A stretch of DNA of 64,000 bases from Salinibacter pepae. GTDB taxonomy: Bacteria; Bacteroidota; Rhodothermia; Rhodothermales; Salinibacteraceae. The DNA lies in NCBI RefSeq assembly GCF_947077775.1, contig NZ_CAMTTE010000001.1:620001-684000 (forward strand), in the 5' to 3' direction. Made by a program: the position numbers and the translations under genes. The notes beneath the pieces were generated by a model that saw nothing but the letters and a program-made list of their open reading frames with translations, was not told the origin of the DNA and made no database searches. Position 1 is the stretch's first letter. The number at the start of each line of letters is the position of its first letter. Positions 9,372 to 37,577 of the stretch are shown in pieces.

Positions 9372-9455
9372 GCCCGAGTGGCGGAATTGGCAGACGCGAC
9401 GGATTCAAAATCCGTTGTCCGCAAGGACGTGAGGGTTCAAGTCCCTCCTCGGGCA
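9372..9455 (+). tRNA. tRNA-Leu (anticodon CAA)
   Basis: The 84-nt gene folds as a type II tRNA. The acceptor is GCCCGAG/CTCGGGC. The anticodon stem is ACGGA/TCCGT with loop TTCAAAA (anticodon CAA, reads UUG). A long variable arm follows (GTCC/GGAC stem), then the T arm GAGGG/CCCTC with TTCAAGT. CCA is not encoded. This is the integration site of the island: its 3' part, from the anticodon loop on, is repeated at 24130-24185. Confidence 0.97.
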
Positions 9456-9456
9456 C
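9403..9456 (+). repeat. left attachment repeat (attL) inside tRNA-Leu
   Basis: It is a direct repeat of 24130-24185. The blocks ATTCAAAATCCGTTG (15 nt) and CGTGAGGG...CGGGCAC (29 nt) are identical. The short variable-arm segment between them differs in sequence and is 2 nt shorter here. Confidence 0.9.
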
Positions 9457-9477
9457 TGACATTTTTAGCCTCAAGAT

Positions 9478-9515
9478 GCCCCTGAACGCCGTCAAACGGC
9501 GATGTCAGGGGCTTT
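9478..9515 (+). terminator. tRNA-Leu terminator (island copy)
   Basis: The inverted repeat GCCCCTGA...TCAGGGGC has a second internal pair (CGCCGT/ACGGCG) and is followed by TTT. A related hairpin follows the right att repeat at 24206-24240. Confidence 0.65.
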
Positions 9516-9572
9516 CTAATTTCGAAGCCTCTCCCTCGAAAATGCAACTCCTTGCAAAGCGATGAAATAGAA

Positions 9573-9591
9573 TGTGTAAGATGTGCGTAAG
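9573..9591 (+). repeat. 19-nt subterminal repeat, left copy (candidate integrase arm site)
   Basis: TGTGTAAGATGTGCGTAAG is found again, with one change, at 24038-24056. Both copies lie about 80-120 bp inside the att repeats, the usual place for arm-type integrase or Xis sites. Confidence 0.55.
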
Positions 9592-9641
9592 CTGAGTTTC
9601 TGGAAGGAGACTCATCTCAGTGCCATCCCGGAACCAGTTGC

Positions 9642-10757
9642 TCAGCTCTCCTCGAAGGCATCCTCCATGGCATCTGCTACCTCATCTACTCGGATATGAC
9701 TGTACCGCTCTGTCGTCGTAATCGAGGAGTGGCCCATGATTTCTTGAATGATGCGAGTAGAAACACCCTTACGCGATAGCAGAGAGACACATGAATGCCG
9801 GAGGGTGTGGAAACTGATACGCTTATCTAGGCCAGCTTTGAGTGCAAAATCTTTGAACCGTCTTGTCATCCGGTCTGGCTTTATCGGTTCGCCTCGCTGA
9901 TCGATAATGACGGCTTCGTCCTGTTCGACCCCCTCTCTCCTCTTCTTAATCTTATTCAGCCGGTCAAGGGCTCTCCCGCGAAGCGGCACGGATCGCTCGT
10001 CTCCAGTTTTCGTCCGAAAGTCCTCCCGGTTTCGAACCGATAGGACTCCAGATTCGAGATCCACGTCTGCCCAAATCATACTTGCGAGCTCTCCCCTCCG
10101 CAGGCCCGTGTACATGGCAATAACAATCGTATCTTTGAGCCACTGAACATCCGGCTGACGTCCAGCTACATCAGTTGTGGTTCCGCGATGCTTATCAATC
10201 GCGCTGAGTAGATCCTTGATGTCGCCAGGATCTAAGATCGGCGTCTCCCGATCTTCTTTGCGCGGTTTCTGAATTTGCTTTATTGGATTTTCCTCTAGAT
10301 ACCACTCGTCTTCACACCAACCGAGAAAGACGCTCAGGTGCCGGTATCGCTTCCGCTGAGTCGCGTTGGCAATTTCCGGATCATAGATGTAGCCTTTGAC
10401 GTCCTGAGGCCTTAGGTCGAGAACGTGGTACGTAGCTGGCAGCTCCCCAGCCCATGCCTCAAGCTGCTGCCGATACGTGTCAATCGTGGACGGCTGAACT
10501 GTTTTTTCTTTGTCGCGCAAGAACTGCCTAATGGCATTTTGAATAACCACGGGTTCAACTCTTTCTTCTCCAATCCATGGATCTCTCTTCCACGGATCAT
10601 ACTGACCCTCAGCCTGAGCTTCCTCTAACTTCTTCAGCTTCTTCTTAGCGGTATCTTTCAGACGTACCCGCAGCGGCACGCTCTTTCGTTTCGGAGACCG
10701 GTTTGGGTCATAGAAGTATGCGTAGTAGTTGCCATTTATTTTTCTCAAATTGGCCAT
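9642..10757 (-). CDS. int: tyrosine recombinase (island integrase)
   Basis: The 371-residue protein has an AP2-like N-terminal arm-binding domain (residues 1-55, NGNYYAYFYDPNRSPKRKSVPL), a SAM-like core-binding domain (about 68-165) and the catalytic domain. The catalytic set is complete: Arg220 (TGLRRGEL), Lys250 (TKTGDERSVPL), His317/Arg320 (HTLRH), His343 (MGHSS) and nucleophile Tyr352 (RYSH). It would integrate and excise the element at the tRNA-Leu att core. The gene is read towards the tRNA, only 185 bp from attL, and is more AT-rich than the chromosome, as expected of acquired DNA. The start ATG at 10757 precedes the conserved NGNYYAY block. Confidence 0.93.
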   Translation of the reverse strand: MANLRKINGNYYAYFYDPNRSPKRKSVPLRVRLKDTAKKKLKKLEEAQAEGQYDPWKRDPWIGEERVEPVVIQNAIRQFLRDKEKTVQPSTIDTYRQQLEAWAGELPATYHVLDLRPQDVKGYIYDPEIANATQRKRYRHLSVFLGWCEDEWYLEENPIKQIQKPRKEDRETPILDPGDIKDLLSAIDKHRGTTTDVAGRQPDVQWLKDTIVIAMYTGLRRGELASMIWADVDLESGVLSVRNREDFRTKTGDERSVPLRGRALDRLNKIKKRREGVEQDEAVIIDQRGEPIKPDRMTRRFKDFALKAGLDKRISFHTLRHSCVSLLSRKGVSTRIIQEIMGHSSITTTERYSHIRVDEVADAMEDAFEES

Positions 10758-10822
10758 CGGGTAGACTTATCTGTTCAAGAATCACGGCCCCGTGAGAAAC
10801 GCGCACGCATCTCTGCTCCCCC

Positions 10823-10854
10823 CAACAACGGGCTCTCTCAGTCTGGCTACGTTG
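10823..10854 (+). repeat. 32-nt bipartite motif, copy 1
   Basis: CAACAACGGGCTC, 7 variable nt, CTGGCTAC, 1 nt, TTG. The same arrangement and spacing occurs at 16120-16151. This copy lies in the intergenic region between the divergent integrase and Xis-like genes. It may be a promoter or protein-binding site. Confidence 0.5.
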
Positions 10855-10980
10855 TATTGCCCCCTTTTATGATCGAAAGCGTCACCTGCTGATAATCTCT
10901 TCGCCCGATAGCTACCAGGCGCTGTCGGGTGATTCATAGTAGCAGACGTTCTGCCTGGTTAGCTCCAGTCTTTTCAGACC

Positions 10981-11292
10981 ATGGAGCCATCTTCAAAAAC
11001 CTCCTCCCAGAAGGCAGAGATTCTCGAACGCTTCCACCAATCGGATAATCTAACCGAAGAAGATGCTAGACTAATCGAGGATTTAGTAGATTGGGCCATC
11101 GATGAAAAACAGGACACTCCAGATCCCCTCTGGACGATTGAAGACGTATTCACTCGTCTAGACGTCGGTAAGCGAACCGTCGAGAAAATTATTGACGCTG
11201 GGGAGATTACCCCTATCTGGGTTCGTGGACAGCGCCGGTTTGAGCCAGAAGCAATTGAGGCTTACTTGCGCAGAAACGTTGGCAAGAAATAG
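10981..11292 (+). CDS. small HTH protein, excisionase-like
   Basis: The 103-residue protein has an acidic N-terminal half and then LWTIEDVFTRLDVGKRTVEKIIDAGEITPIWVRGQRRFEPEAIEAYLRR. This is the MerR/Xis-type 'HTH-17' fold: helix-turn-helix at about 52-72, a wing (IWVRGQRRF) and a final helix. Such proteins bend DNA at att sites or act as recombination directionality factors. It is divergent from the integrase and 224 bp away, a common layout for int/xis modules. Function as Xis is inferred from fold and position; a plain regulator is possible. Confidence 0.65.
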   Translation: MEPSSKTSSQKAEILERFHQSDNLTEEDARLIEDLVDWAIDEKQDTPDPLWTIEDVFTRLDVGKRTVEKIIDAGEITPIWVRGQRRFEPEAIEAYLRRNVGKK

Positions 11293-11334
11293 CCCTCCCT
11301 GCCCTGATTTAGGCCTTCTGGCGCAGAGTATGGA

Positions 11335-12171
11335 CTATCCGAGACGGTGAGTCCACCATCCGCCCACGGCCGCAGCCAAGAGGTCTCGCGTCACGGGGTT
11401 TTCGAGCTCCGGCCTCCGCCCCGGCGGAAGCCCCCATAACCACCCGATTGCAGCACCACCCCTGGCCGCAGAGTTTTCATACTGGGAGTCTGCAAGTTCG
11501 AGGACGTCTCCCACCACCGTCAGTGCCTCCTGGTCGAGACGATCTCCCTCCGCTGCCCGATGGGCGTACAGCGCGGCCTCGTTCGGCGCGTCTATGATTT
11601 CGCGGAAAACCGTTTGCATTGGGTCCGTCGGCTGGGTCAGCTCGTAGAGCACCCCGATCTTGTTGGCCTCAAGCAGCAACGCTTCACTGGGCACACCTAA
11701 CGCCCTTGCGATTGCCTCCACAACGCCTAGTCGAAGGCCTTTTCCTTTCTCGATTTTTAGCAGGGTCTGGCGCGTGATCGCGCCTGTCTTTTCAGCTAAG
11801 GCCGTCTTCGAGAGTCCGAAAAGCTTCCGGACCACCTGGACGTTCCGTCCCACGACGTAGTCGATCTTGCTTCCCGCATTGCGCCGCTGGCTAAGGGCAT
11901 CTAGGGTCTCCTCGCGGCGCGCAACCTCCTGTTTTACAGCCTTGAGGCGACGTTTGGCCTCCACCGTGCCCATTTTCACCTTCGCTCGCAGGAGGTCGTG
12001 AAGCACGTTTCTCGCTTTCTCATCGTCGCCGTCCTGGTAAGCACTACTCAGGCGCCGGATCTGATCGTCACTGGCAACCTCGCGGAGGTCGCCTTCGATT
12101 TCAGTCCCGCGGTGTCGCATGTCCTGTTTGAGCTTCTCGAAGTACTCGACGGCGTCCTTAGGTATTTCCAT
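11335..12171 (-). CDS. XRE-family transcriptional regulator with long N-terminal region
   Basis: The 278-residue protein has a helical N-terminal half of about 115 residues (EYFEKLKQDMRHRG..., RRLKAVKQEVARREETLDALSQRR). An XRE/Cro HTH follows: VVRKLFGLSKTALAEKTGAITRQTLLKIEKGKGLRLGVVEAIARALGV. The C-terminal tail (LTVVGDVLELADSQYENSAARGGAAIGWLWG) is not recognised. The ATG at 12171 is preferred. An upstream extension to 12282 is open but covers an AT-rich TTATATTAACA segment that looks like its promoter. It faces the Xis-like gene (stop to stop 42 bp) and is divergent from the DnaE-like gene, so it may repress island genes. It has no ImmA-type peptidase partner. Confidence 0.7.
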   Translation of the reverse strand: MEIPKDAVEYFEKLKQDMRHRGTEIEGDLREVASDDQIRRLSSAYQDGDDEKARNVLHDLLRAKVKMGTVEAKRRLKAVKQEVARREETLDALSQRRNAGSKIDYVVGRNVQVVRKLFGLSKTALAEKTGAITRQTLLKIEKGKGLRLGVVEAIARALGVPSEALLLEANKIGVLYELTQPTDPMQTVFREIIDAPNEAALYAHRAAEGDRLDQEALTVVGDVLELADSQYENSAARGGAAIGWLWGLPPGRRPELENPVTRDLLAAAVGGWWTHRLG

Positions 12172-12485
12172 GCCAGCTTGTGTTAATATAAATGTCGGTG
12201 CGTCGAATAGGTTAACGTCGTGCTCGGTGGTAGTCGTCCTCGGCCGTGGTGTTTCGGCAGGTAGAGCGCAGGGTCCTTCCATGCCCACCTATTCTCACCG
12301 GGTCTAGGTGGGCGTTGGAGATGTCTTGAGTTGTCCATCGGCCCTCAGCGCCGCTGGGAAGGGACAACAAAGCCCTTCGCTTTTCTCCGTTGGTTGTTAT
12401 TAGAGAGGATCAAACCTCAAGGCGAGCAGGAAGCTCGTGCCTCTCTCGCTTGCCGCCTTTGTGCGGTTACTAAACGTCAAAGCCA
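12172..12485. promoter_or_regulatory. divergent intergenic region between the XRE gene and dnaE-like gene
   Basis: About 310 bp without a convincing gene. It holds the AT-rich stretch next to the XRE start (near 12175-12195), a stem-loop at 12330-12368 and a TTGGTTGTTATTAG segment about 85 bp before the dnaE-like ATG. Divergent promoters probably lie here. Confidence 0.4.
12330..12368 (+). promoter_or_regulatory. stem-loop upstream of the dnaE-like gene
   Basis: GTTGTCC (12330-12336) pairs with GGACAAC (12362-12368), enclosing an inner CAGC/GCTG hairpin. There is no clear T-run, so a leader structure or operator is as likely as a terminator. Confidence 0.35.
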
Positions 12486-15400
12486 ATGAGAGTAGCTTTC
12501 ACCAGTACACCGAGCACCCTGAAGACACTTTTCAAAGACGCACTTTCTGAGCGCACAGTCCTCTGGAAAATCGAGGACATCGACTTCGACGACGACCGCC
12601 GGGAGGAAGTGATCAATTACATCGGGGAGCGCTACGGAGAGGACCGGGTCACGGAGGTGATCACCTTCGACCGGTATAAGCTCAAGTCGTCCGTGAGGAA
12701 TCTAGGCCGCGTCTTTGGCCTCAAGCCCACCGAGCAAGACGCGGTGGCTGATAAGATCGAGCAGGTCGAGGAGGAAGAAGGCATCGATACCGTGGAGGAG
12801 GCCCTAGACGCGAGCCCGGATCTGCGCAATCGCAGAGAGGAGGACGAACGCTTCGACCGCATCTGCAAGCGGGCCGACGACCTCCAGGGGCTTGCCCGCC
12901 ACCCGGGCCGCCATCCGGCCGCCGTCATCGTGACGCCCGGGGAGATGACCGACTACGTCCCGACCCGCACGATGAAAAGCGGCGGGGAGGAGCACACCGT
13001 CACCCATTTCGATGGGGACCAGCTCGAGGACATTGGCCTGCTGAAGATTGACGTGCTCGGCCTGGCGGCCCTAAACGAGATCGACACGGCTCTAGAGATG
13101 GCCCAAGACTTGGGCCACGACATCACCGAGGAGGACCTGGATGGCCGGGACGATCCGGCGGTGTACGAGAACATCTTCGCGGAGGGGGATACTCGCGGCA
13201 TCTTTCAGTTCGAGAGCGGCGGGATGCGCCAGTTTCTCGCGGAGATGGAGCCGACCGAATTCGTCCACATTGCGGCCATGAATGCCCTGTATAGGCCGGG
13301 CCCGATGGAGCAGATCCCGAGCTTCATCGACCGGATGCACGGAGAAGAAGAGGTCGTCTACATCGATCCCTCGATCCACGACGCGATCAAAGACGACGTG
13401 GCCGACATCCTGGACGACACCTACGGGATCATGGTCTTTCAGGAGCAGGTGATGCAGGTGTGCCGACGGCTGGCCGGGTTTGACCTCGGGGAGGCGGACA
13501 TTATGCGGAGATGCGTGCCTGGGGATACGGAGGTTGTCGATGCTGAAACTGGGGAGCGGAAACGCATCGACTCGATCGAACCGGGCACGTCAGTTCTCAC
13601 GATGAACGACGAATATGAGCTGGCAGAGACGACCGTCGCGAAGCGATTCGAGAACGGCACCAAGCCGACGTTTCGGGTCACCACGCGCAGCGGCCGTACC
13701 ATCGAGATGACGAAAGACCACCCCCTTCGCACAATTGGGGGTTGGGAGCATCTGTCCGACTTGTCAGAGGGAGATCCCATTGCCGTTCCATCATCCCTAC
13801 CGGCAAGCGGCACCGAAAGCCCGCCCGACGAGCGAATGCGCGTTGTTGCAAGTTTGATCGGAGACGGTCAGACGCTAAGAGGCAATGGAAGAGCTACGGC
13901 GCGGTTTTACAGCAGCGACCCTGACCTGCTTGACAGTTACTGCGATGCTGTGTCTAAACTGGGAGGGAATACGACTTCTTATGATCATCCCACCACTGAC
14001 GTGAAGACCGTTACGGCTCGTGGTCCAACAGAGGGGCAAAACCCCATCATAAACCTCGTTCGGGAGACGGGAATTGACGAGAAAGCGGCGGACAAGCGCC
14101 TGCCCGAAGAGGTCTTCCGATACGACGCAGAGTCGCTCGCCCGATTTCTCGCGTATCTGTTCGACACAGACGGGGGGTTTGAAGAAACCCGCGTCTCGTA
14201 CAGCTCGGCAAGCGAAGGCCTCATCGAGGATGTTGCTCACGCCCTCCTCCGCCTCGGTATCGTAACCATGCGGTTCCACCGCGAGATGTCAGACCATCAA
14301 GACAACTTTGAGCTCATAATCGGGGATCAGGAGGACATCGTACGGTTCGCGGATGTCGTTGGACCGCACCTCTGTCCCCGGAGGAAGAAGGCGCTTAAGC
14401 CCCTCAAGGCCGACGCTCTGGCCAAGTCTCGCAGCCACTCTATGTACAACCTTCCGGCCGAGATTACGCACAAAGTTCAGGAGGCAAAGTATGCGAGCGG
14501 ACGGACGTGGAAGGAGGGCGGTGAGATTGTCGGAAGGGAAGGGCGCAATTTATCCTCCGGGCTCAACTTCACCAACCCAAACCAGAAGCTCAGTCGGCAC
14601 CGGACGGAGGAATTGGGCCGTGCTTTCAATAGCGATGAGCTCGTCAACATCGCAGACGGAGAGGTGCTCTGGGACCCGATCGTCGACATTACGCCCGTCG
14701 GCGAGAAGAAGGTCTACGACTTAGCCGTGCCTCCACATCGTAATTTCGTAGCGTCGGATATCGTCATCCACAACTCGATCGGCAAGAAGAAAAAGAAGCT
14801 CCTGATGGAGCAGCGAAAGAAGTTCGTGCAGGGCTGCATCGATCAGGGCTACGGCCGGGAGCTGGGGGAAACCATCTTCCAAAAGATCGAGGAGTTTGCA
14901 GACTATGCGTTCAACCGCGCACATAGCTCGTCCTACGCCGCGCTGGCCTACAAGCAGGCCTACCTCAAATTCTACTGCCCGGCGGCCTTCTACGCCGCGG
15001 CGGTGCAGGCGGAGGGGAACGACGAGAAGCGAGCGGCGCTCATCCGGGACCTAAGCGAGCGGGGCGTCAAGGTGAAGCGCCCCTCGATCAACGAATCGAA
15101 AGCCGGCTTTGCGGCCACCAGCGACAACGTGGTTCGATTTGGCCTCTCCACCATCAAGAACGTCGGCAAGCAGGCGCAGGTGTTTCTTGAGGAGCGGGAG
15201 AGAGGCGGCCCGTTCGAGTCGTTCATGGAGTGCTTGTGTAGGTGCACGCCCAACGCCCGGGCGGTCAAAAGCCTGATCAAAGCGGGGGCCTTCGACGATT
15301 TCGACCTGTCGAGGGCGACGATGATGGAAAACCACGACAAGGTGCTTACCTACGCCCGGAAGCGCCGGGACTACAGGCAGGGCAGCCGGAAGTCGATGCC

Positions 15401-15926
15401 CGACGCCCCGAGCATCCATGAAGTGTCGGAGTTTCCCCGCAAGAGCCGCTTCCGGCAAGAGCGGGAGGTGGCGGTGACGTACACGTCCGGCGCCCCGACC
15501 GACGAGGTCGAGTGGCTCGCCCGGCACCTGAGCGGCCACGAGCACGTCCACAAGGGCACGAAGTACCGGCTGGAGCTGGCCACGATTTTGGAGGTGCGAG
15601 ATGCCACCACGAGCACCGGGAACCGGATGTGGTGGGTGACCTACCGCACCGCCGATGGCGAGGTCCCCGACTCCGCCGCGATGTGGGACAGCACCTACGA
15701 GGCGATCAGCGAGCACCTGGAGCCGGACACGCCCGTGGTGCTTGTTCTTGAAACTGACGTGGCCGGGGACTACGCCGGGAGCTACACCGTCGAGAACGCG
15801 GTCCCTGCGCGGCAGATTCCGGCCCGCCTGGGGCAAGTCGCGTGCGTGGAGACCGATTCCCCGGAGGCGGCCCGAAGGGCTTTAGAGCGGCTCTCTCAGC
15901 TTCCGGAGGGGGAGATGCGGGCGTAG
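12486..15926 (+). CDS. truncated DnaE-like DNA polymerase III alpha subunit with an in-frame intein
   Basis: The ORF has 1146 codons. Removing the intein (residues 343-763) leaves a 725-residue C-family polymerase. The three palm aspartates are present: Asp31 and Asp33 (EDIDFDDDRREE) and the Asp of LLKIDVLGL. So are RPGPMEQIPSFIDR, the finger motif SIGKKKKK, FNRAHSSSYA, the HhH region (SLIKAGAFDDF) and an OB-like tail. The N-terminal PHP domain and first part of the palm, about 370 residues in normal DnaE, are missing. The similarity begins abruptly at about residue 29, as if cut there. The tail is also shorter. It cannot be the host replicase; it may be an accessory polymerase or a captured fragment. 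It diverges from the XRE gene. Confidence 0.85.
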   Translation: MRVAFTSTPSTLKTLFKDALSERTVLWKIEDIDFDDDRREEVINYIGERYGEDRVTEVITFDRYKLKSSVRNLGRVFGLKPTEQDAVADKIEQVEEEEGIDTVEEALDASPDLRNRREEDERFDRICKRADDLQGLARHPGRHPAAVIVTPGEMTDYVPTRTMKSGGEEHTVTHFDGDQLEDIGLLKIDVLGLAALNEIDTALEMAQDLGHDITEEDLDGRDDPAVYENIFAEGDTRGIFQFESGGMRQFLAEMEPTEFVHIAAMNALYRPGPMEQIPSFIDRMHGEEEVVYIDPSIHDAIKDDVADILDDTYGIMVFQEQVMQVCRRLAGFDLGEADIMRRCVPGDTEVVDAETGERKRIDSIEPGTSVLTMNDEYELAETTVAKRFENGTKPTFRVTTRSGRTIEMTKDHPLRTIGGWEHLSDLSEGDPIAVPSSLPASGTESPPDERMRVVASLIGDGQTLRGNGRATARFYSSDPDLLDSYCDAVSKLGGNTTSYDHPTTDVKTVTARGPTEGQNPIINLVRETGIDEKAADKRLPEEVFRYDAESLARFLAYLFDTDGGFEETRVSYSSASEGLIEDVAHALLRLGIVTMRFHREMSDHQDNFELIIGDQEDIVRFADVVGPHLCPRRKKALKPLKADALAKSRSHSMYNLPAEITHKVQEAKYASGRTWKEGGEIVGREGRNLSSGLNFTNPNQKLSRHRTEELGRAFNSDELVNIADGEVLWDPIVDITPVGEKKVYDLAVPPHRNFVASDIVIHNSIGKKKKKLLMEQRKKFVQGCIDQGYGRELGETIFQKIEEFADYAFNRAHSSSYAALAYKQAYLKFYCPAAFYAAAVQAEGNDEKRAALIRDLSERGVKVKRPSINESKAGFAATSDNVVRFGLSTIKNVGKQAQVFLEERERGGPFESFMECLCRCTPNARAVKSLIKAGAFDDFDLSRATMMENHDKVLTYARKRRDYRQGSRKSMPDAPSIHEVSEFPRKSRFRQEREVAVTYTSGAPTDEVEWLARHLSGHEHVHKGTKYRLELATILEVRDATTSTGNRMWWVTYRTADGEVPDSAAMWDSTYEAISEHLEPDTPVVLVLETDVAGDYAGSYTVENAVPARQIPARLGQVACVETDSPEAARRALERLSQLPEGEMRA
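13512..14774 (+). other. intein with LAGLIDADG homing endonuclease, within the dnaE-like gene
   Basis: The intein is 421 codons (Cys343 to Asn763 of the host ORF). Splicing residues look complete. The N-terminus is CVPGDTEVVDAETGE (Cys1). Block B is TKDHPL with the TxxH pattern. The C-terminus is FVASDIVIHN followed by Ser as the +1 nucleophile, with penultimate His and final Asn. Two dodecapeptide (LAGLIDADG-type) motifs are present, RVVASLIGDGQ and RFLAYLFDTDGGF, each with the catalytic acidic residue. It is inserted just before the conserved M/I-GKKK finger motif. The extein on both sides stays in frame. The intein is slightly more AT-rich than the polymerase around it. Confidence 0.92.
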
Positions 15927-16049
15927 GTGAGGGGGCGGTTCTACTCGGATACGGGTCAGCGGAAGATCCTGACGCTCGGGCGCACTGTCAGCGCCGACGC
16001 AGAAGCGCTTGAGGAGCTCTCCCGGATCGGAAACTTGCATCTCGTCTAG
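15927..16049 (+). CDS. possible 40-residue protein following the dnaE-like gene
   Basis: A GTG codon directly abuts the TAG of the dnaE-like gene and opens a 40-residue frame (starting MRGRFYSDTG, ending SRIGNLHLV). Codon use resembles the polymerase gene. It may be translated by coupling, or be the frameshifted remnant of a longer polymerase tail. No family recognised. Confidence 0.3.
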   Translation: MRGRFYSDTGQRKILTLGRTVSADAEALEELSRIGNLHLV

Positions 16050-16119
16050 TTTCGCCGGACCTGCGAGAACCTTTCCTGCGAGAGCCCTCCAGCCATCGCC
16101 CCAGTAGCAGCAAGCCGGG

Positions 16120-16151
16120 CAACAACGGGCTCAGAAGGACTGGCTACCTTG
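16120..16151 (+). repeat. 32-nt bipartite motif, copy 2
   Basis: Same CAACAACGGGCTC-N7-CTGGCTAC-N-TTG arrangement as 10823-10854. It lies about 160 bp before the family-A polymerase-like gene, in a 260-bp non-coding stretch. Confidence 0.5.
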
Positions 16152-16252
16152 GCAGGTGTAACGGAAAAAAGCAGAGGATGAGCGGTGTTCAGCCGACGAG
16201 TCACGGCCGGCCCTTCTTTTTAGATGAAAAAAAAACTGAACATTTGAAATAA

Positions 16253-16264
16253 TCCCAGCTGGGA
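16253..16264. promoter_or_regulatory. 12-bp perfect palindrome upstream of the polymerase-like gene
   Basis: TCCCAGCTGGGA lies 48 bp before the ATG, directly after an A-rich, AT-rich stretch (16221-16252) that could hold the promoter. Position and symmetry suggest an operator. Confidence 0.35.
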
Positions 16265-16312
16265 CAAACCTCACCACATTCGTTCTTCCTGGAATTAGCA
16301 TCAACCTGATCT

Positions 16313-18946
16313 ATGATCGAACGCACAGAGAACCGTATCAACAATGACGAGCTGGCGATCCCGTTTGTCGGGACTCGGAATCCGGAGAAAGCCCCGCACC
16401 AGTCATCACCCCGGAAATACGCCTACGGACACGGGAGCGGGGCTGGCTGGTCAAGCAGGCGTGGAGGAACAGAGTCCAGCGAGAGCGGCCGTCCCTTGAG
16501 CGAGGAGCCACAGATAAGCGAGCGGCTCGAGGACTTGGCCCGTCCGCTCGTGCGGATCTACGAGCGACAGCCCCCCGGGACAATACAGGCAAAGCCCCCC
16601 CTGCCCTCGCTGGACTGCCCGACTGGCCGGGCGTACCTGGAGACCGGGCTCGTCGTAAGCGAGCTCATCGGCCGCGACCAGAAGCAAGGCCAGATCCGTG
16701 CCGGGGCCATCTACGACCGCCTCTCCCGGCGCGCCTGCCGGGAGCTGCGCTCGTCCCATGGGCCGAATTTGATCAGTGCGGGAGGAGATGCGGAGGTCCT
16801 TCGTGTCGCCTGGACGCCGAGCCCTATCGACGCCACGACGTACCTCCACTTCTCACGGGGCCCTTTGCTAGCGCGGGCACACGCTACGTGCCGACAACTC
16901 CAGGCAGGGGCCGCCGAGATTGCCGAGGCGACCGCTACCCTCTTCGAAGACGGTGATCCCAAGTCCCTAGAGATACTGCTTTCCACTTTCTGGGAAACGA
17001 AGGCTTATGGGAACCCCCGCCGTCCCGTTAACTCCCCGCCGCCCACTTATCCTTCCGCCCCATCCCCTTCCACCTCCTCCTATGTCCTTGAAGCCCTTTC
17101 GGATCTATCCCCATCTCTCCATCCTCCCTCGGCTAATACACCCCACGTACGGGAAGTACTGAAGGAGGTCCAGAATAAGAAAAGCCTGCTTCTGACGCCG
17201 ATTGAGCGGGAATGGGCGGCAGCTACAGAGGACGTATCGGATGTAAAGCTTGTACGGGCATGGAAGCACGAGTCCCTTCCCAGCGGCAGAAGCCCCAGTG
17301 GCGCGCAGGGCGTGTCCATCCCCCCGAACGTCTCCGAGGGGCTCTACTGGAAAATCGAGGACCATCTTCCCCGGGTTGCAGCGGATGCGGAGCTCCGGCG
17401 TGCTCTGGTGTACCTCAAGATGGTCGCCCGGCCGGACCCGCGATCCGGGTACCTGCCGTTCCACGAAACTGCCGTTGCCCACATCCGGGGCGCGCCCAGC
17501 CTCGCAGACCGGCACGAGGCGCGGGTATACGACCTGGCCGAGCGGCTCCAGGAGGCCGTCGCCAAGGACATGAAAATAGGGAACGCAGGTCCTCCTCCCT
17601 TTCGCGTCGTCGGGCACGCAAAGGGCCAAAACTGCGTGCAAATTACCCCATTCGCTCTCCCCGATCCTCTCGAAGAGGCATTTTCCGAGGAGGCCAGCCG
17701 GGCCCTCCTGGCGATCACCACCGGCGATCTCCGGGCAACGGTCAACCTCGAGTCCGGCAACAGGGGCCGCCCAGAGCGGCGGCAGAAGCGCAGGGAGCGG
17801 CGGCGAAGGAAAGCAGAACGGACCGGCAAGCGGCACGACGTACCCGACCGTGCCCAGTGCTTGCAGCAGGAACTCCACGACCTCCCTCAGAGTCGCTTTC
17901 GGAGCAACCTCAAAAGCGCGAAAGACAAGCTTCTCGCCTTAGCCGAGGAGCGAGCCGAAGAGCAGCCTGAAGCGGGGGCCGCCCCGAAAGTGCTCCCCTA
18001 CCTCGGACAGCTGCGGGCCATCGCCGACGTGAGCGTTCCCCTGTATAAGTTTACGGGGAGCACCCTCCGGCTCACTCCGGCGGGCCCCTCGCTCGCGGCG
18101 CTCCCGAAGAAGATGCGGCGGGCGGTTTTCAGCGACTACCTCGAAGTAGACATGTCTTCCGCCCAGCTTGCGCTGGCGGGGTCCCTGTGGGACTTTCCCG
18201 CCCTGCGGGAATTCCTGAGAGAGTGCACAGGAAGTGACAGGAGCTGGTGGTCGGAGCTGGCTGGGCATCTGGCCGAGGAGCTCCCTGCCCCCCACTACGA
18301 CCCGGGCAAGCACTTCGAGGCGGTCAAGGGCACGCTCAAAGCCTTCACATACGGCCTTTTTTTCGGGATGCAGCGGAAAAACCTGCGGCGACTCGGGAAC
18401 CCCAAGGCCGCCTCCACCGACGAGGCCCAGTACCACGAGTCGGCCCGTAAGATGAACCTTCTCTTTCTCGGGAAAGCCCGTTTCCCGCACGAGAAGAGAG
18501 CCATCCAGGCGAGGGCCGGAAAGGTTGGGAGCGCGCTCCTCAGTCACCCCCTGATCGAAGGGCTCCTGCGGCGGCGCGAACAGCTGCTCTCCAAAATTCG
18601 GAAAGATGGGAGCATTACCGACTGCTTCGGCCGCTCTCTCGACACAGGCGGGGGCCGAGACGCGAAGAGCATCCTCGCCGAGTATATGCAGAACGCCGAG
18701 CTGAGGGTGATGCTGCCGGTCGGGGAGACGGTCTTGGGCGACCCGGAGCTGAGGTTCGGCCTCTGGCAGCACGACGGGGTGACGATCGCCCCACGGCGGC
18801 GGAAGCCCTGGGCATACCGCGGGGCTGTTGAGACGACGCGTGAGGCGCTTCAACGAGGCCGAGAGGGGCTGGCCGAAGAGATGGACGTGCCACCGATTGA
18901 AACCGAGCTAACCGTCGACTACGGGAAAGAGTACCTGGCGTCTTGA
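16313..18946 (+). CDS. divergent family-A (Pol I-like) DNA polymerase
   Basis: The protein has 877 residues; the last third carries a Pol I-type palm/fingers. Motif A is EVDMSSAQLALAG, with catalytic Asp613 and Gln618 where Pol I has steric-gate Glu710. The O-helix is KGTLKAFTYGLFFGM: Lys672 (Arg754), Lys676 (Lys758), Tyr680 (Phe762, Tyr in T7), Phe684 (Tyr766). Then come DGSITDCFGRSL (like the family's G-x-x-x-T-x-x-GR), AEYMQNAELRVM (the QGxxAD region) and motif C QHDGVTI with Asp821 but Gly822 in place of Glu. The N-terminal 500 residues have no 3'-5' exonuclease motifs I could see; residues ~480-520 are very basic. The ATG at 16313 is the first in frame; a later start is possible. This is an inferred catalytic assignment. 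Confidence 0.65.
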   Translation: MIERTENRINNDELAIPFVGTRNPEKAPHQSSPRKYAYGHGSGAGWSSRRGGTESSESGRPLSEEPQISERLEDLARPLVRIYERQPPGTIQAKPPLPSLDCPTGRAYLETGLVVSELIGRDQKQGQIRAGAIYDRLSRRACRELRSSHGPNLISAGGDAEVLRVAWTPSPIDATTYLHFSRGPLLARAHATCRQLQAGAAEIAEATATLFEDGDPKSLEILLSTFWETKAYGNPRRPVNSPPPTYPSAPSPSTSSYVLEALSDLSPSLHPPSANTPHVREVLKEVQNKKSLLLTPIEREWAAATEDVSDVKLVRAWKHESLPSGRSPSGAQGVSIPPNVSEGLYWKIEDHLPRVAADAELRRALVYLKMVARPDPRSGYLPFHETAVAHIRGAPSLADRHEARVYDLAERLQEAVAKDMKIGNAGPPPFRVVGHAKGQNCVQITPFALPDPLEEAFSEEASRALLAITTGDLRATVNLESGNRGRPERRQKRRERRRRKAERTGKRHDVPDRAQCLQQELHDLPQSRFRSNLKSAKDKLLALAEERAEEQPEAGAAPKVLPYLGQLRAIADVSVPLYKFTGSTLRLTPAGPSLAALPKKMRRAVFSDYLEVDMSSAQLALAGSLWDFPALREFLRECTGSDRSWWSELAGHLAEELPAPHYDPGKHFEAVKGTLKAFTYGLFFGMQRKNLRRLGNPKAASTDEAQYHESARKMNLLFLGKARFPHEKRAIQARAGKVGSALLSHPLIEGLLRRREQLLSKIRKDGSITDCFGRSLDTGGGRDAKSILAEYMQNAELRVMLPVGETVLGDPELRFGLWQHDGVTIAPRRRKPWAYRGAVETTREALQRGREGLAEEMDVPPIETELTVDYGKEYLAS

Positions 18947-19380
18947 GAGCTGAAGGAAGAGGGCAGTGTCGTTGCCGAGTCATTACCGACCTGTGGAAAT
19001 TTTGGGGCTCGCACAGGTCTGCTGATCCGAATCAGTTTGGTGAAGTGCAAGAATTTGGACCACCTTCCCACCATATCTATGAACCGGAGGAGTTATTCCA
19101 AAAAACGATGGCACCTAATCCGAAGCTGAACGTTTTTCGGCATTTACTGTCGTCCCTGAAGCTATCGAACTGTTCGGTCTTGGTACTCAAATCACGCATG
19201 AGGGCCGAACACTCCAGCGAGGAGGCCCTCCGAGTACTTCACAAGTGTCATGATGAAATGGAATTCCAGACAGACAACGAGATTAAGGAGCTTGAAGACG
19301 GGTCGGTTGGCGTGCTTGCTGTGCCCCGCAGCCATTACGAGAAAGTGCTTGAACGACCCACGTTCGGTAAGCTGGCGTAG
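18943..19380 (+). CDS. hypothetical protein overlapping the polymerase-like gene
   Basis: A TTG start overlaps the TGA of the preceding gene by 3 nt (TTGA), suggesting translational coupling; a later ATG at 19108 would give a 90-residue protein. The 145-residue product has Cys/His residues near the N-terminus and a helical middle (FRHLLSSLKLSNCSVLVLKSRMRAEHSSEEALRVLHKCHDEM), then ELEDGSVGVLAVPRSHYEKVL. No family is recognised. The DNA becomes more AT-rich here, at the junction with the LacI/methyltransferase segment. Confidence 0.35.
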   Translation: MRAEGRGQCRCRVITDLWKFWGSHRSADPNQFGEVQEFGPPSHHIYEPEELFQKTMAPNPKLNVFRHLLSSLKLSNCSVLVLKSRMRAEHSSEEALRVLHKCHDEMEFQTDNEIKELEDGSVGVLAVPRSHYEKVLERPTFGKLA

Positions 19381-19454
19381 TTTTTTCCTAAGTCAGTTCT
19401 GTTTGGAAAAGGATTCTACGGCATTTGGAAAACTCTTGCTATTCCACAAGGGTA

Positions 19455-19469
19455 TCAGAATCGTTCTGA
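19455..19469. promoter_or_regulatory. inverted repeat, candidate LacI-type operator
   Basis: TCAGAA-TCG-TTCTGA is a perfect 6+6 inverted repeat with a 3-nt centre, 76 bp before the LacI-family ATG. It is a plausible autoregulatory site. Confidence 0.4.
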
Positions 19470-19545
19470 ACCCCAAAGACGGTAAGAACAGCTGCTTCGC
19501 TCGGCTCAAAAAATGCTCATCGGCGGTTTTCTAGGGTGCAACATC

Positions 19546-20577
19546 ATGAATGACTCACGTCCCGAGGGAAAAAGCTCAACAATATACGATGTCGCGGAAC
19601 GTGCCGGAGTGGCAATCTCGACAGTTTCTCGCGTGTTAAATGATGACGAGGACGTTGCTGAGTCTACTCGGGAACGGGTTCTCGAGGCAGTAGAGAAGAT
19701 TGGTTATACTCGGAACCGTGCAGCAAGATCGCTAGCAATACAGACATCAAAAACTATTGCTGCTGCACTACCGACATTCACGACTCCTTTTCACAATGAG
19801 CTTTTAAAGGGTGTACGGGACCGATTAGAGGACGAAGATATTGACCTAATGATATGTGACCTAGAGTGGGAATCTATAAGGTCGTCTCTCGAAAGCTTTC
19901 TTTCTAGGGGAGCTATAGAGGGTCTAATTTTTGCGGGACATATCAGCGACGCAAATGTTATCAATCGCCTTAAAAGCCTAAGTATACCAGTCGTAGTTAT
20001 AGGCACAAAGGTAGATGGACTAGAATCCTTTCATTGGGATAACAGGTCAGGAGCTCACATGGCCGTTGATCATCTAGTTTCCATCGGACACGATAGGATA
20101 TTTATGATTTCTTCTCCGACCGAAAATATACCATCAAAAAGGAGAGAAGAAGGGTTTTTCTCAGCACTGGATTCCAAAGGAATAGAATACGAAAAAGACT
20201 CAGTATTCTACGGTGAGACACTTAAACATGATGGTTTTAGCGAAGAATCAGGCTATGAGGCAATGAGCAAAATACTTGACTATGACAGTAGTGTATCCGC
20301 GATATTCGCTAGTAGTGACGTACATGCACTTGGCGCCTGGCAAAAAATAAATGAAGAGGGCATTAGTGTTCCATCAGACATTGCCATTATTGGTTATGAC
20401 AATATAAAAGTCAGCAGGTACGCGGGACTAAGTAGTATATCCCAAAACATACTCCAAGTTGGATTTGAGTCCACAAATAGTCTACTCGAAATAATGAAAA
20501 GAAGTAAAACGGAAACTAGATCAAACAAAGTAGAAATATGTCTTATAAAAAGGAAATCGACGGCTGGTAGGGACTAA
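19546..20577 (+). CDS. LacI/GalR-family transcriptional regulator
   Basis: This is a 343-residue full-length LacI-family protein. The N-terminal HTH is STIYDVAERAGVAISTVSRVLNDDEDVAESTRERV (residues ~11-45), with the hinge helix at NRAARSLAIQTSKTIAAALP. The periplasmic-binding-like ligand domain follows (IEGLIFAGH, IPVVVIGT, DNRSGAHMAVDHLVSIGHDRIFMIS, AIFASSDVHALGAWQKINEEGISVPSDIAIIGYDN). The ATG at 19546 is preferred to one at 19513. It is 49 bp upstream of the cytosine methyltransferase on the same strand and probably shares its transcript. R-M systems usually use small XRE-type C proteins, so a LacI relative here is unusual. The effector is unknown. The segment is clearly AT-rich. Confidence 0.88.
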   Translation: MNDSRPEGKSSTIYDVAERAGVAISTVSRVLNDDEDVAESTRERVLEAVEKIGYTRNRAARSLAIQTSKTIAAALPTFTTPFHNELLKGVRDRLEDEDIDLMICDLEWESIRSSLESFLSRGAIEGLIFAGHISDANVINRLKSLSIPVVVIGTKVDGLESFHWDNRSGAHMAVDHLVSIGHDRIFMISSPTENIPSKRREEGFFSALDSKGIEYEKDSVFYGETLKHDGFSEESGYEAMSKILDYDSSVSAIFASSDVHALGAWQKINEEGISVPSDIAIIGYDNIKVSRYAGLSSISQNILQVGFESTNSLLEIMKRSKTETRSNKVEICLIKRKSTAGRD

Positions 20578-20626
20578 TGAGAAATTTCTACAAGTAGACT
20601 TTCTTTCGTAAAAAACCTTGCGTGAA

Positions 20627-22030
20627 ATGCCGGAAACAGATTCCGAATACCAATACCCGTTGGTCTCTCTCTTTACAGGTGCAGGGGGGCTAGATATAGG
20701 GCTTGAGAAGGCTGGCTTTAATACAGTTTTTGCGAATGATAATAAAGATTGGGCATGTGAAACAATAAAGAGAAATAGAAGGCTATCTGGACTAACAAAA
20801 CAAGAATTTGGAAATTGGTTTAATAAGCAGATACAGCAAAGGTGTCACAAGTATGCCTCTGACGAAGAAATAGAAAACTTAAGGAGACGTGTAGAGCCTT
20901 CCAGAAAAAATAAGAGTTTCTTAAACGATGCTAATGTTGTCCAGGGTGATATCTCCGATATCTCCTCGCAGCAAATAATGGACGCCGCGGGTATAGAAGT
21001 AGGTGAGGCCTCGGTAGTGGCGGGTGGCCCCCCGTGTCAGTCTTTCAGCCGCTCTGGTGACAGAGAATCTGTAGAGGTTGATAAAGGACAGTTGTTCGTT
21101 GAGTTCGTGCGTGTGGTGGATGACTTAGAGCCATCCTGGTTCATATTTGAGAATGTCAAAGGGCTGGAGACCGCTAAAACAGATGTTCTTTACGAGGTCT
21201 GCTTAAATTGCGGAAACCAAGAAATACCCCTCTTCGCCAAAAGACAAGAATGGACCCCGGAAGCCTCTCCTCCATCTTCTACTTGCAGTACTTGTGGTAG
21301 TAATAAATTAGAGTGGGAGCTTGAGGAAGAAAAAGGCGGATCGCTAAAAATTATAATCAACGAGTTCGAAAAGAGAGCCGGATATGATTGCCAGTACAAG
21401 GTTTTGAATGCAGCAAACTTTGGCGCTCCGCAAAAACGCAAGAGACTGTTCATAGTAGGGTCTGAGGACGGGTCAGATTTTTCTTGGCCTTCTCCCACAC
21501 ACATGGATCCCAATAAAAACGGATTTCAGGTTGACGCCTTTGCAAGCAGCAACGGTGCTCGTCGACCCTGGGTCACGATGTGGGATGCTATTTGGAAGGA
21601 TGGACATTTCAAGTATGGTGAGTTGGATCCTGATGTGGCTCGGTTATGGGTACGTAACGTCGTTCGTCCCAAGGACGAGCCTGTTACGTGGAGATTGGAC
21701 AAACGCCCTTCCCCGACTGTTGGAGCTCATCAAGCTGCCAAGTTGTCGATTGCGCCTAACGGCGTTCCTGAAAAACAGATCGAACGCCAACAGTGGCACA
21801 CGAAAGGAAATCGGCAAGGGGATACTCCACCCGTAGAGGTCGAATATGAGTTTCTAAGCGATGGTGAGTTACTGATGCTCCAGACTTTCTCTCAGAACCG
21901 GTACCTATACGGAACCCGAATGCAGCGTGCTAAGCAGATTGGTAATGCAGTACCGCCCCTCTTAGGGGAGGTTGTCGGGGAGGCAGTAGCAGAAGCTATG
22001 GAAACGCGGAAAGCTTCTTCTTACTGTTGA
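20627..22030 (+). CDS. DNA (cytosine-5-)-methyltransferase
   Basis: The 467-residue protein methylates C5 of cytosine in an unknown DNA sequence. Motifs in order: I VSLFTGAGGLDIGL (about 13-26), IV GGPPCQSFSRSG with nucleophile Cys137, VI FENVKGLE, VIII QKRKRLFIVG, a target-recognition region at about 300-400, and X QRAKQIGNAVPPLLG. Between VI and VIII sits an insert with two CxxC pairs (Cys192/195 and Cys220/223), which looks like a zinc ribbon and is not part of the usual core. The ATG at 20627 is chosen over TTG at 20618. With the downstream gene it probably forms a type II R-M pair. Confidence 0.92.
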   Translation: MPETDSEYQYPLVSLFTGAGGLDIGLEKAGFNTVFANDNKDWACETIKRNRRLSGLTKQEFGNWFNKQIQQRCHKYASDEEIENLRRRVEPSRKNKSFLNDANVVQGDISDISSQQIMDAAGIEVGEASVVAGGPPCQSFSRSGDRESVEVDKGQLFVEFVRVVDDLEPSWFIFENVKGLETAKTDVLYEVCLNCGNQEIPLFAKRQEWTPEASPPSSTCSTCGSNKLEWELEEEKGGSLKIIINEFEKRAGYDCQYKVLNAANFGAPQKRKRLFIVGSEDGSDFSWPSPTHMDPNKNGFQVDAFASSNGARRPWVTMWDAIWKDGHFKYGELDPDVARLWVRNVVRPKDEPVTWRLDKRPSPTVGAHQAAKLSIAPNGVPEKQIERQQWHTKGNRQGDTPPVEVEYEFLSDGELLMLQTFSQNRYLYGTRMQRAKQIGNAVPPLLGEVVGEAVAEAMETRKASSYC

Positions 22031-22092
22031 GAATTCAGGTGGCAGGTCGAGTCTTTGAATTAGCTCTCAGGATCATGCATCGCTCGGGAAAA

Positions 22093-22150
22093 CGGCTGAC
22101 GGCAGACCACAAGTTTTCTTTAGTACTCATCAGCGGTCTGCTGTCGGCCG
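22093..22150 (+). terminator. strong 16-bp hairpin between methyltransferase and endonuclease genes
   Basis: Positions 22093-22108 pair with 22135-22150 over 16 positions, with two G-U pairs and a 26-nt loop. There is no clear T-run after it. It may attenuate transcription into the endonuclease gene or mark the end of the methyltransferase unit. Confidence 0.45.
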
Positions 22151-22284
22151 ATCCCGTTCCGTGTATACTGAAATAGTACTCCCGCAGTCCACACGCACTG
22201 CTGAGGTACGACCAGAATTGAAACCAAGGAATCAGCCGCTATTATGTAGGGGGCATAAAACTGTCATTTGGTACGCACCCTCTG

Positions 22285-23301
22285 ATGGCTGGACCAACTG
22301 TTGCTGCATTCACCGATACTGAACACCAACGGGCTTACAAGCTTCTGGCCTCCAAAGTCGCTACGATGGGTGGTCGTAAGCTGGAAGAGGATGATTGGAA
22401 CTCAGTTTATTTGCAGACAAAGCGTTTTCCAGAAAGCGGATGGAGCAACACCGATCTCGATATCAACCATGAGGGTCTTGGAGTTGAGTCGAAACTTCTG
22501 AAGTCGACTCGTAAAGGTGGGGTCTCATCATACTTCGGGGATACAGTCATGCACCCTGCTGGTACTCGGGCCGTAGACACACCCGAGTATGGTTTTGGGA
22601 ACGGTGATGCCGACGAGGCTGCTCATTTCATGGTTCAAGAGTACGCGGACTACATCCGTAGACGACAGAATGAGGTCAGAGAGAACTCTTCCGACGGTGA
22701 GGCTGATCTTAGGCTGTCTCTGTTGATCTGGGAAGAGGATCTTTCAGAGTTCATCTATTTTGAGCGCCGATGGACTCCTCCTGATCCTGATGACTTCTAT
22801 GGTGAGTGGTCCCATAACCCCCGAAGTAGCAGTAAGAGACAGTCTAGTACCAGCCTACATGTTTACAGAGAAGCTAACGACGAGAAACGTTACTCAGTGA
22901 CAGATCCAAGTAAGGGGGTAAAGGTCCAACCGTATATCGACGTACCAGAAGAGGACAGCGACCATCTATACCACTTCGTGGCCCAGGGGGAGACGCCTGG
23001 AGCCTCAATGAAAAGACGGGTGTGGGCTCCACCCACTCTTGATACGTATTTGAAGACGAAGCTTGGCGATGACGTAGACGGAGAGATGCTTAGCAATAAA
23101 ATCTATGAGTTCGCTGACAGAGTCTCTTCGGGAGAAATCGACCTCAGTTCTGACGATGGTGTAGAGTCCATCTCCGTTGCTGAGCCTTTCGATATCACTC
23201 AGGAAGCTTACTCGATACTCCAAGAATTGTCGGAAGCAAGCGACACCGACGCTCTCAGGCTGGTTGCGAGAAAGCTGGAGCGCAACCAAACTGGGACTTG
23301 A
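22285..23301 (+). CDS. candidate type II restriction endonuclease (PD-(D/E)xK-like)
   Basis: The 338-residue protein is not recognised by family. Near the N-terminus, SNTDLDINHEGLGVESKLLKS has the spacing of a PD-(D/E)xK nuclease: Asp57/Asp59, then Glu68-Ser-Lys70 in a beta-strand context. Further on there is a mixed alpha/beta region (LRLSLLIWEEDLSEFIYFERRW) and a charged helical C-terminus. Position directly after a 5mC methyltransferase, with the same AT-rich composition, supports the role of cognate endonuclease. It has its own spacing of 254 bp from the methyltransferase, with a hairpin between. An alternative is a DNA-binding helper protein. The ATG at 22285 is the first in frame. Confidence 0.5.
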   Translation: MAGPTVAAFTDTEHQRAYKLLASKVATMGGRKLEEDDWNSVYLQTKRFPESGWSNTDLDINHEGLGVESKLLKSTRKGGVSSYFGDTVMHPAGTRAVDTPEYGFGNGDADEAAHFMVQEYADYIRRRQNEVRENSSDGEADLRLSLLIWEEDLSEFIYFERRWTPPDPDDFYGEWSHNPRSSSKRQSSTSLHVYREANDEKRYSVTDPSKGVKVQPYIDVPEEDSDHLYHFVAQGETPGASMKRRVWAPPTLDTYLKTKLGDDVDGEMLSNKIYEFADRVSSGEIDLSSDDGVESISVAEPFDITQEAYSILQELSEASDTDALRLVARKLERNQTGT

Positions 23302-23518
23302 ACGCGGATTAATGATGAGAGTAGCCGCGCTCAGAGCAGATCGGGTACACACATACCGTGAAGTGTGGTACTCAGCCACAACAGTTCCATCATCTATCCT
23401 TTTCGCGAACCTGTTACGGAACTGCACCTCTTCGGCGTGTTTTTGAGACAGGTACACATGCGTCGCGCAAGCTCGGAAAGCGTAACAATCGGTCTTTTCT
23501 CCCCAAACCTGCTCCCCT

Positions 23519-23975
23519 GTGATACGCCCCGATAAGCTTCCGAAAGTGCTGACCGAGGCCGAGACGGAGTGTCTCATTCAACAACCGAATCAGCGATACT
23601 ATGGCCTCCACCGCGACTACTTACTTCATGCGGCTAATGCTGGATGCGGGACTTCGAGCATCGGAGGCGGTCTCCTCTCGGCCTGAACACGTGGACCTGA
23701 TGAGCGGGAAATCAATGGTCCGAGAGGGCAGAGGTGCAAAGGACCGCACACTCTGGGTTGGAGGAGATTTGCTCGACGAATTCCAGGAATGGATGAAACG
23801 TCACCCAGAACCAGACCAGTTACTCCCAACGCGAAGCGGGAAGAATGTGGCGACCTCGCGCCTCCGTCGGTCGGTGAAGCGGTACACTCGTGATGCGGAG
23901 ATTGAAGAAATAGAGCGGGTTTCTCCGTACCTTCCGACACGCCTCTTGCTATACGACTACACCGGGACACTGTAA
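23519..23975 (+). pseudogene. decayed tyrosine recombinase (XerC/D-like)
   Basis: Recombinase sequence is spread over two frames. From 23519, VIRPDKLPKVLTEAETECLIQQPNQRY is the usual start of the XerC/D catalytic domain. After a frameshift near 23600, the frame from 23601 gives RLMLDAGLRASEAVSSRPEHVDL (the catalytic Arg region) and GRGAKDRTLWV (Lys region). It ends with VSPYLPTRLLLYDYTGTL, where the H-x-x-R box should be (P-H-T-x-R-H). The box and the catalytic Tyr are lost to a small deletion and early stop. It is GC-richer than the preceding gene and lies next to attR, so it may be a relic of an earlier insertion. Confidence 0.7.
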
Positions 23976-24037
23976 GCAGGCGACACTAGCACCCTACGTC
24001 TTCCGAAACTAAAATGGCAAGGGTGAATCTCGGAAGA

Positions 24038-24056
24038 TGTGTAAGATATGCGTAAG
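24038..24056 (+). repeat. 19-nt subterminal repeat, right copy (candidate integrase arm site)
   Basis: TGTGTAAGATATGCGTAAG differs from the copy at 9573-9591 in one position and lies in the same orientation, 74 bp before the right att repeat. Confidence 0.55.
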
Positions 24057-24129
24057 AGTGATTAGGGTGTCTCCCGCAGATCGGTGCTCAGCGCCTGTAA
24101 GGTATAGTTTGCGGTGCCATCCAGGTTGT

Positions 24130-24185
24130 ATTCAAAATCCGTTGGTGCTTACGCACCGTGAGGGTTCAAGTCCCTCCTCGGGCAC
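24130..24185 (+). repeat. right attachment repeat (attR): 3' fragment of tRNA-Leu
   Basis: This carries the anticodon loop, 3' anticodon strand, variable arm, T arm and acceptor 3' strand of a tRNA-Leu, without any 5' half. The variable arm (GGTGC...GCACC type) differs from the one in the intact tRNA at 9372. It is presumably the original chromosomal 3' end displaced by integration. Confidence 0.88.
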
Positions 24186-37319: not shown

Positions 37320-37440
37320 TGCGCACCGGAGCAAGGCGAAGACAGCGATGGGGGCGGTCGCGACCACGCCGACGACCGACCTGCGAGGCCGTAGGGGGAT
37401 CCGAAAGGCCCGGGCCGGCGTCGGGCCCCCTGTAGCACCC

Positions 37441-37481
37441 AAACGACAAAACCCTCGATTCCGGACGAGCGGAACCGAGGG
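37441..37481 (-). terminator. terminator after tRNA-Asp
   Basis: On the minus strand CCCTCGGTTCCG pairs with CGGAATCGAGGG (one G-U) around a 6-nt loop, followed by TTTTGTCGTTT. It ends transcription of tRNA-Asp before the ZIP gene. Confidence 0.75.
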
Positions 37482-37486
37482 CTGGG

Positions 37487-37561
37487 CGGTCCGGACGGGA
37501 CTCGAACCCGCGACCTCTGCCGTGACAGGGCAGCATTCTAAACCAACTGAACTACCGGACC
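37487..37561 (-). tRNA. tRNA-Asp (anticodon GTC)
   Basis: The 75-nt gene is on the minus strand. Acceptor GGTCCGG/CCGGACC with discriminator G, anticodon stem CTGCC/GGCAG with loop CTGTCAC (anticodon GTC), T loop GTTCGAGTC. CCA is not encoded. Confidence 0.97.
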
Positions 37562-37569
37562 GTCGATTT

Positions 37570-37577
37570 CAAAATTA
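37570..37577 (-). promoter_or_regulatory. possible -7 element of the tRNA-Asp promoter
   Basis: On the minus strand TAATTTTG matches the Bacteroidota -7 consensus TAnnTTTG exactly, just before the tRNA 5' end. No clear -33 TTG was seen. Confidence 0.3.

Follow-up and report, generated by a model that had tools for sequence, protein, structure and literature searches.

A tRNA-integrated element of Salinibacter pepae with a divergent A-family polymerase and the rear part of a phage-type DnaE

Two unrelated DNA polymerase genes in one short stretch of a bacterial chromosome raise the question of whether both serve the replication of the DNA on which they lie. Our window, 64,000 nucleotides from the 3.59-Mb chromosome of the halophilic bacterium Salinibacter pepae (bases 620001-684000), contains at 12486-19380 a DnaE-like open reading frame (ORF), a 40-codon ORF, a gene resembling A-family polymerases and a further ORF overlapping the latter. 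The original prediction saw here a possible replication or repair cassette of a new type with two polymerases side by side, possibly on a self-contained element. All four ORFs are indeed present in the same direction (Table 1), and they occupy the central part of an integrative element of 14.7 kb that is inserted at the anticodon loop of tRNA-Leu(CAA). Taken as a whole, our data make it likely that this element has one mobile-element polymerase, of a type that has received little study, for its own DNA, together with a DnaE gene that has become a relic or an accessory.

An integrative element in a tRNA-Leu gene

The region between 9 and 24 kb of the window falls below the background GC content of about 0.69, with a minimum of 0.44, and both of its ends are marked by tRNA sequence. 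The 15-bp crossover core ATTCAAAATCCGTTG and 29 bp of the 3′ end of tRNA-Leu(CAA) are repeated exactly at 24130 and 24157, respectively. In the congener G003, the left flank with the tRNA runs directly into the right flank of the window (G003:C1:2324515-2325267 and 2325269-2326174), and the tRNA at this empty site has the same variable arm as the right copy in the window. Therefore, the element extends from about 9403 to 24129 and has imported its own tRNA 3′ half. An integrase, attachment (att) repeats at both ends and an empty site elsewhere are thus all in place, as for tRNA-targeting integrative elements, and together with an excisionase-like gene they confirm the self-contained element of the original prediction. 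In another congener, G004, the two parts of this tRNA-Leu region are separated by about 33 kb (G004:C4:140308-140997 and 173877-173936), which suggests a different, larger insertion at the same site.

The DnaE remnant and its intein

The relationship of the first ORF to DnaE is evident from the Pfam finger domain (E 7e-45) and from the match to T. thermophilus DnaE (E 2e-112); besides the fingers, Pfam reports HhH, intein and LAGLIDADG domains. A full-length, intein-less homologue is encoded on a 197.8-kb viral contig of IMG/VR (IMGVR_UViG_2830161386_000001), where it adjoins a UvsX-like recombinase gene. From the fingers to the OB domain, the window piece shares 78% identity with this phage DnaE versus 40% with the chromosomal DnaE of the host. 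Homology to the phage protein starts only at residue 31, with 17% identity before and 66-81% after this position, and therefore D401, the first catalytic Asp, has gone with the front, as have the PHP domain and the GS motif. An alignment to the E. coli alpha subunit likewise shows neither PHP domain nor GS motif and an Ile in place of D401, which leaves D403 and D555 from the set of features (PHP, GS motif, D401, D403, D555) of a functional DnaE. Moreover, the window piece contains nothing that corresponds to the beta-clamp motif, which reads QNSLF in the chromosomal DnaE of the host. Compared with phage-encoded DnaE (PHROG 405), the ORF corresponds to the rear part, with about 425 front residues gone, an intein added and a stop near the end. 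Judged from these alignments, it derives from a replicative polymerase captured from a phage, of which the rear part is left, and would be unable to polymerise; most likely it persists as a relic or serves as an accessory without catalysis, and it probably has no essential role.

The 40-codon ORF is no gene of its own but the severed tail of the same DnaE, which it continues in frame beyond the TAG and whose phage counterpart it matches with 35% identity. A profile built from the tails of chromosomal DnaE proteins of Rhodothermales, in which some rows were wrong (antisense), did not support this assignment; we adopt it because the phage homologue, found later, aligns with the ORF. On the phage side, small ORFs stand in tandem immediately upstream of dnaE (L156, 882-3742), with a repeated (V/I)xVRVTRxGIEI motif at their ends. 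The phage contig with the full-length DnaE gave no match to the A-family profile described below.

The DnaE and A-family genes occur together in the window and in only one other place, contig C326 of genome G008, where the DnaE copy is shortened still further and neither Asp of the D401/D403 motif remains. This second pair and the shared orientation of the genes would suit a cassette for replication or mutagenesis in which both polymerases work, but with the losses in both DnaE copies such a cassette is extremely improbable and is largely refuted by the sequences; the A-family gene is a plausible polymerase of the element. The expectation that homologues recur together elsewhere was thus borne out once; however, one partner is truncated and non-catalytic in both places, and this is one of the outcomes that the original prediction had itself named as speaking against it.

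Neither the 421-residue intein in the DnaE ORF, nor the nature of the 40-codon ORF as a DnaE tail, nor the tRNA-Leu att sites had been part of that prediction. The intein has its splicing blocks, Cys1, a His-Asn end and Ser+1, with a frame open in both exteins, and both LAGLIDADG Asp are present. Its insertion site is identical to that of the chromosomal dnaE inteins of the congeners G006 and G011 and of G013 (63-69% identity), and the dnaE genes of the host and of the phage are both intein-free. Since the inteins of the window and of G008 share 80% identity versus 46-52% for the exteins, the intein has moved on its own. The intein itself may be what is maintained, with the DnaE piece as its carrier and a homing endonuclease that spreads among dnaE genes or cuts the intein-free phage dnaE, in line with the shared site, the retained Asp residues and the interference of a phage intron endonuclease with a rival phage (PMC11620839). 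However, preferential targeting of phage dnaE was not seen when the site flanks were compared with those of host dnaE, which match about equally well (15/20 and 16/20 versus 16/20 and 16/20 in the phage), and we regard this explanation as very doubtful.

The A-family polymerase and its relatives

The protein encoded downstream of the DnaE remnant was matched by none of the Pfam, NCBIfam and PHROGs models. A profile of 11 relatives matches Taq polymerase over the whole core (E 6e-6), and hhalign against chromosomal PolA gave 95.5% (E 1.5e-8). For the predicted core, with a mean predicted local distance difference test score (pLDDT) of 60.7, the 50 best Foldseek rows were all A-family polymerases (best E 1.4e-6), and the structural match reached a VIA Z of 12.2 over 213 residues at a root mean square deviation of 4.2; the full-length model was poor (pLDDT 42.7). 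The fold, with its palm and fingers, includes motifs A, B and C. R586 and D613 are invariant, D821 is nearly so and Y680 is conserved; K672xxxK676 shows no exception among the 11 sequences aligned, and both catalytic Asp (motifs A and C) are retained. The gene is very divergent, probably intact and probably that of a working polymerase. All of the 12 chromosomal PolA proteins have Glu at the steric-gate position of motif A (E710 of E. coli Pol I), and 17 out of 17 relatives have Gln or His there, as counted from the alignment and from reading the G015 sequence. Variants of Pol I at E710 show relaxed sugar discrimination, and the same would be expected, by analogy, of the A-family protein. In front of the core, residues 359-444 show a helix-strand-helix-helix-strand-strand succession in the weak full-length model (pLDDT ~50-75 here), which points to a probable winged helix that may bind DNA.

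The window polymerase is a mosaic: its residues 279-875 are closest to a protein of G003 (50%), and residues 62-224 match only the DnaE-linked polymerase of G008 (E 1e-7). The G003 gene (L023:7236-10616) lies on the chromosome near a tmRNA gene (11331-11697) and adjoins an RNase H gene, without an integrase. The N-terminal extension common solely to the two DnaE-linked polymerases hints at a functional link, and yet it would also fit the transfer of a single block of DNA. The truncated DnaE may be kept for a function, either by assisting the extended A-family protein as a partner without catalysis or as a decoy which poisons the replisome of phages using this DnaE. The related, independently shortened DnaE directly upstream of the A-family gene in G008 argues for such a role, as do the closeness of the window piece to the phage polymerase, its open frame, the predominance of third-position changes, and the retention of 100 of the 103 deeply conserved residues in the remaining part, as in working DnaEs; from the latter it follows that the loss is recent or the remainder still in use. 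We nevertheless consider a retained function unlikely, since there are two cases only, DnaE and the extension may have travelled together in a single block, the window gene has a stop codon near its end, the G008 copy has lost 13 of the 103 residues, and most of the divergence may be older than the truncation.

Relatives of the A-family protein are present in 13-15 of 114 Rhodothermales genomes (15 gave matches, three of these marginal and probably due to ordinary PolA or short fragments) and on a plasmid of Deinococcus peraridilitoris. No other matches appeared in 394 genomes sampled from the phylum, no relatives of the protein were found in phages and IMG/VR, and a scan of genome contigs gave two loci of a single genome and nothing else. 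An integrase of the window's type lies within 10 kb of 8 of the 17 A-family loci, with about 0.06 loci expected by chance according to our own estimate (58 integrase matches in 91 genomes). Several relatives adjoin tRNA genes with att repeats, which measure 52 bp and lie about 19.7 kb apart in G047, and 37 bp and about 6 kb apart in G038. The neighbouring defence genes include SIR2 with a short Argonaute (G047), AriAB/PARIS (G038), a type IIG restriction-modification gene (G032), BrxA with BrxC of BREX (G015) and a PADLOC candidate (G007); two further relatives neighbour nuclease genes, which encode an RNase_T exonuclease in G004 and RNase H in G003. This recurrence beside many differing defence systems would also be compatible with an A-family protein that is itself a defence effector, like some phage-defence polymerases and reverse transcriptases, a role which has been raised for PolA-SSB primases too (PMC10061031). 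We think this quite unlikely, because the A-family gene is the constant and the defence cargo the variable part, and because the gene is linked to integrases and ParA plasmids and adjoins an exonuclease or RNase H gene in two relatives.

An element with its own mobile-element polymerase remains our preferred explanation, and several observations weigh against it. Neither a Pfam scan of the window element's genes nor the surroundings of the polymerase revealed a helicase, and beside 11 relatives no conserved small same-strand ORF or neighbour resembling a single-stranded DNA-binding protein (SSB) was found, although a highly diverged SSB, for example the ORF at 18943-19380, could escape such a search. 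Other A-family copies reside on ParA plasmids, some also with a RepO-like gene, and therefore the A-family polymerase is not the only replication candidate of those plasmids. In addition, the deepest evidence for the A-family assignment is at profile level with a structure model of moderate confidence, and the good conservation of the remaining DnaE part sits uneasily with a relic.

The tree shows no separate clades of island and plasmid polymerases, the two being intermixed. On the host's own 39.8-kb plasmid (L033; G000:C2:37930-39810 and 37172-37810), another diverged A-family relative lies beside ParA, and the plasmid also has a RepO-like gene; a 23-kb contig (L084, G008:C173) carries two different A-family relatives (723-2996 and 11036-13477) on either side of a ParA gene.

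Cargo genes, comparable elements and significance

The remaining genes of the element are listed in Table 1. The LacI-type regulator and the cytosine methyltransferase that comes directly after it (19513-22030) lie in a stretch with a GC content of 44%, as if gained separately from the other island DNA, and the 338-aa protein is, from its position, possibly the restriction partner of the methyltransferase. An intact counterpart of the frame-broken XerC-like gene is found on the 39.8-kb plasmid of the same genome (C2:16888-17463), which hints at an earlier exchange between plasmid and island. No relatives of the excisionase, the regulators or the 145-aa and 338-aa ORFs were found at other A-family loci.

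Table 1. Features of the integrative element (positions in the window)
Feature	Position	Strand	Basis and remarks
Left attachment site	9403..9456	+	3′ half of tRNA-Leu(CAA); tRNA gene 9372-9456 by ARAGORN
Crossover core ATTCAAAATCCGTTG	9403-9417	+	Anticodon-loop stretch of tRNA-Leu(CAA)
Tyrosine integrase	9642..10757	-	Pfam Phage_integrase E 2e-35; relatives adjoin 7 other PolA-like genes
Excisionase-like helix-turn-helix (HTH) protein	10981..11292	+	HTH_17 E 1.5e-8, excise E 1.5e-6
Cro/C1-type HTH regulator	11335..12288	-	HTH_3 E 7e-11
DnaE-like ORF, truncated phage type	12486..15926	+	Phage DnaE homology from 12576 (fingers, HhH, OB); intein-interrupted
421-residue intein with LAGLIDADG endonuclease	13512..14774	+	Pfam Intein_splicing, LAGLIDADG_3; residues 343-763
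In-frame TAG	15924..15926	+	Trp codon in phage gene
40-codon ORF, severed DnaE C-terminal tail	15927..16049	+	In frame with DnaE; aligns to phage tail
Divergent A-family polymerase	16313..18946	+	Extension 16496-16984; probable winged helix ~17387-17644; core ~18002-18943
145-aa ORF	18943..19380	+	4-base overlap with A-family gene; no family match in library scans
LacI-family regulator	19513..20577	+	Pfam scan; low-GC stretch
C5 cytosine DNA methyltransferase, cargo	20618..22030	+	Pfam E 3e-50; PADLOC MTase_II
338-aa protein	22285..23301	+	No library or PADLOC match
XerC-like recombinase relic, frame-broken	23519..23975	+	NCBIfam; 67-69% identity, two frames, to plasmid C2 gene
Right attachment site	24130..24185	+	Original tRNA 3′ half, variable arm as in empty site

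A comparable arrangement, in which a mobile element combines an A-family polymerase with an integrase or resolvase and nearby restriction genes, was already known from TV-Pols (Iyer, Abhiman and Aravind 2008, PMC2579912) and PolA-SSB primases (PMC10061031). The window family resembles TV-Pols in its mobile-element A-family core, which has an invariant Arg in the hairpin that precedes the palm, both catalytic Asp and a variable N-terminal part, and in its nearby lambda-type integrase and restriction genes; the TV-Pol linkage to a D5 helicase, resolvase, integrase or transposase is represented by the integrase at the 8 loci. The presumed TV-Pol of phage Ma-LMM01 likewise shows QHDG and D....H. 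In sequence, this one presumed TV-Pol gave no significant match: it scored best among the Ma-LMM01 ORFs compared, at an E of 0.02, and its hhalign result was not significant either. In contrast to TV-Pols, the window family has KxxxK in place of RxxxK in the fingers, a D5 helicase was not found, and nuclease genes lie beside two relatives, a linkage absent from TV-Pols according to PMC2579912. With PolA-SSB primases and CcPol-MP of SCC elements (PMC10061031, PMC7581432), the latter with demonstrated primer-independent synthesis, it shares a genomic-island A-family polymerase with restriction-type cargo. However, neither the helicase and a recognisable adjacent OB-fold SSB-like gene as in PolA-SSB primases nor a conserved small partner gene was found, and it comes with a tyrosine integrase and tRNA sites in Rhodothermales, not Bacillota. 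Pipolins (piPolB, PMC7385651) are also islands or plasmids defined by their own polymerase, with tyrosine recombinases, an excisionase-like gene and restriction-modification cargo, but their polymerase is of the B family, which makes this an analogy without homology. Since fold, context and Arg agree and KxxxK, helicase and SSB do not, we liken the element to TV-Pol elements, the closest known kind together with PolA-SSB polymerases, and do not assign it as a strict member; by this analogy, it would work like a TV-Pol element.

In our preferred explanation, the integrase and the excisionase would move the element, and the A-family protein, with the probable winged helix in front, would most likely prime and/or copy the element DNA after excision or transfer. 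The cytosine methyltransferase and further cargo would come after the polymerase, and the captured rear part of phage DnaE, colonised by an intein, may persist as a relic or a non-catalytic accessory. Beyond this, we offer the conjecture, unlikely as it stands, that Rhodothermales islands and plasmids carry helicase-free winged-helix A-family primase-polymerases without a steric gate, one branch of which recruited a decapitated phage DnaE, bound via the extra N-terminal domain, as a non-catalytic partner or an anti-phage decoy.

Overall, the element points to a small and clearly delimited family of islands that carry defence genes and have in common a polymerase gene unrecognised by Pfam, NCBIfam and PHROGs. 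One of these islands (L029), which in 6 kb comprises an integrase, the polymerase and one defence gene, could rank among the simplest systems for studying what makes mobile islands retain an A-family polymerase of their own. Should the DnaE piece have a function, it would be a phage replication subunit that a host island retains although it can no longer catalyse; as a relic, it would illustrate the passage of phage replication genes and inteins through islands.

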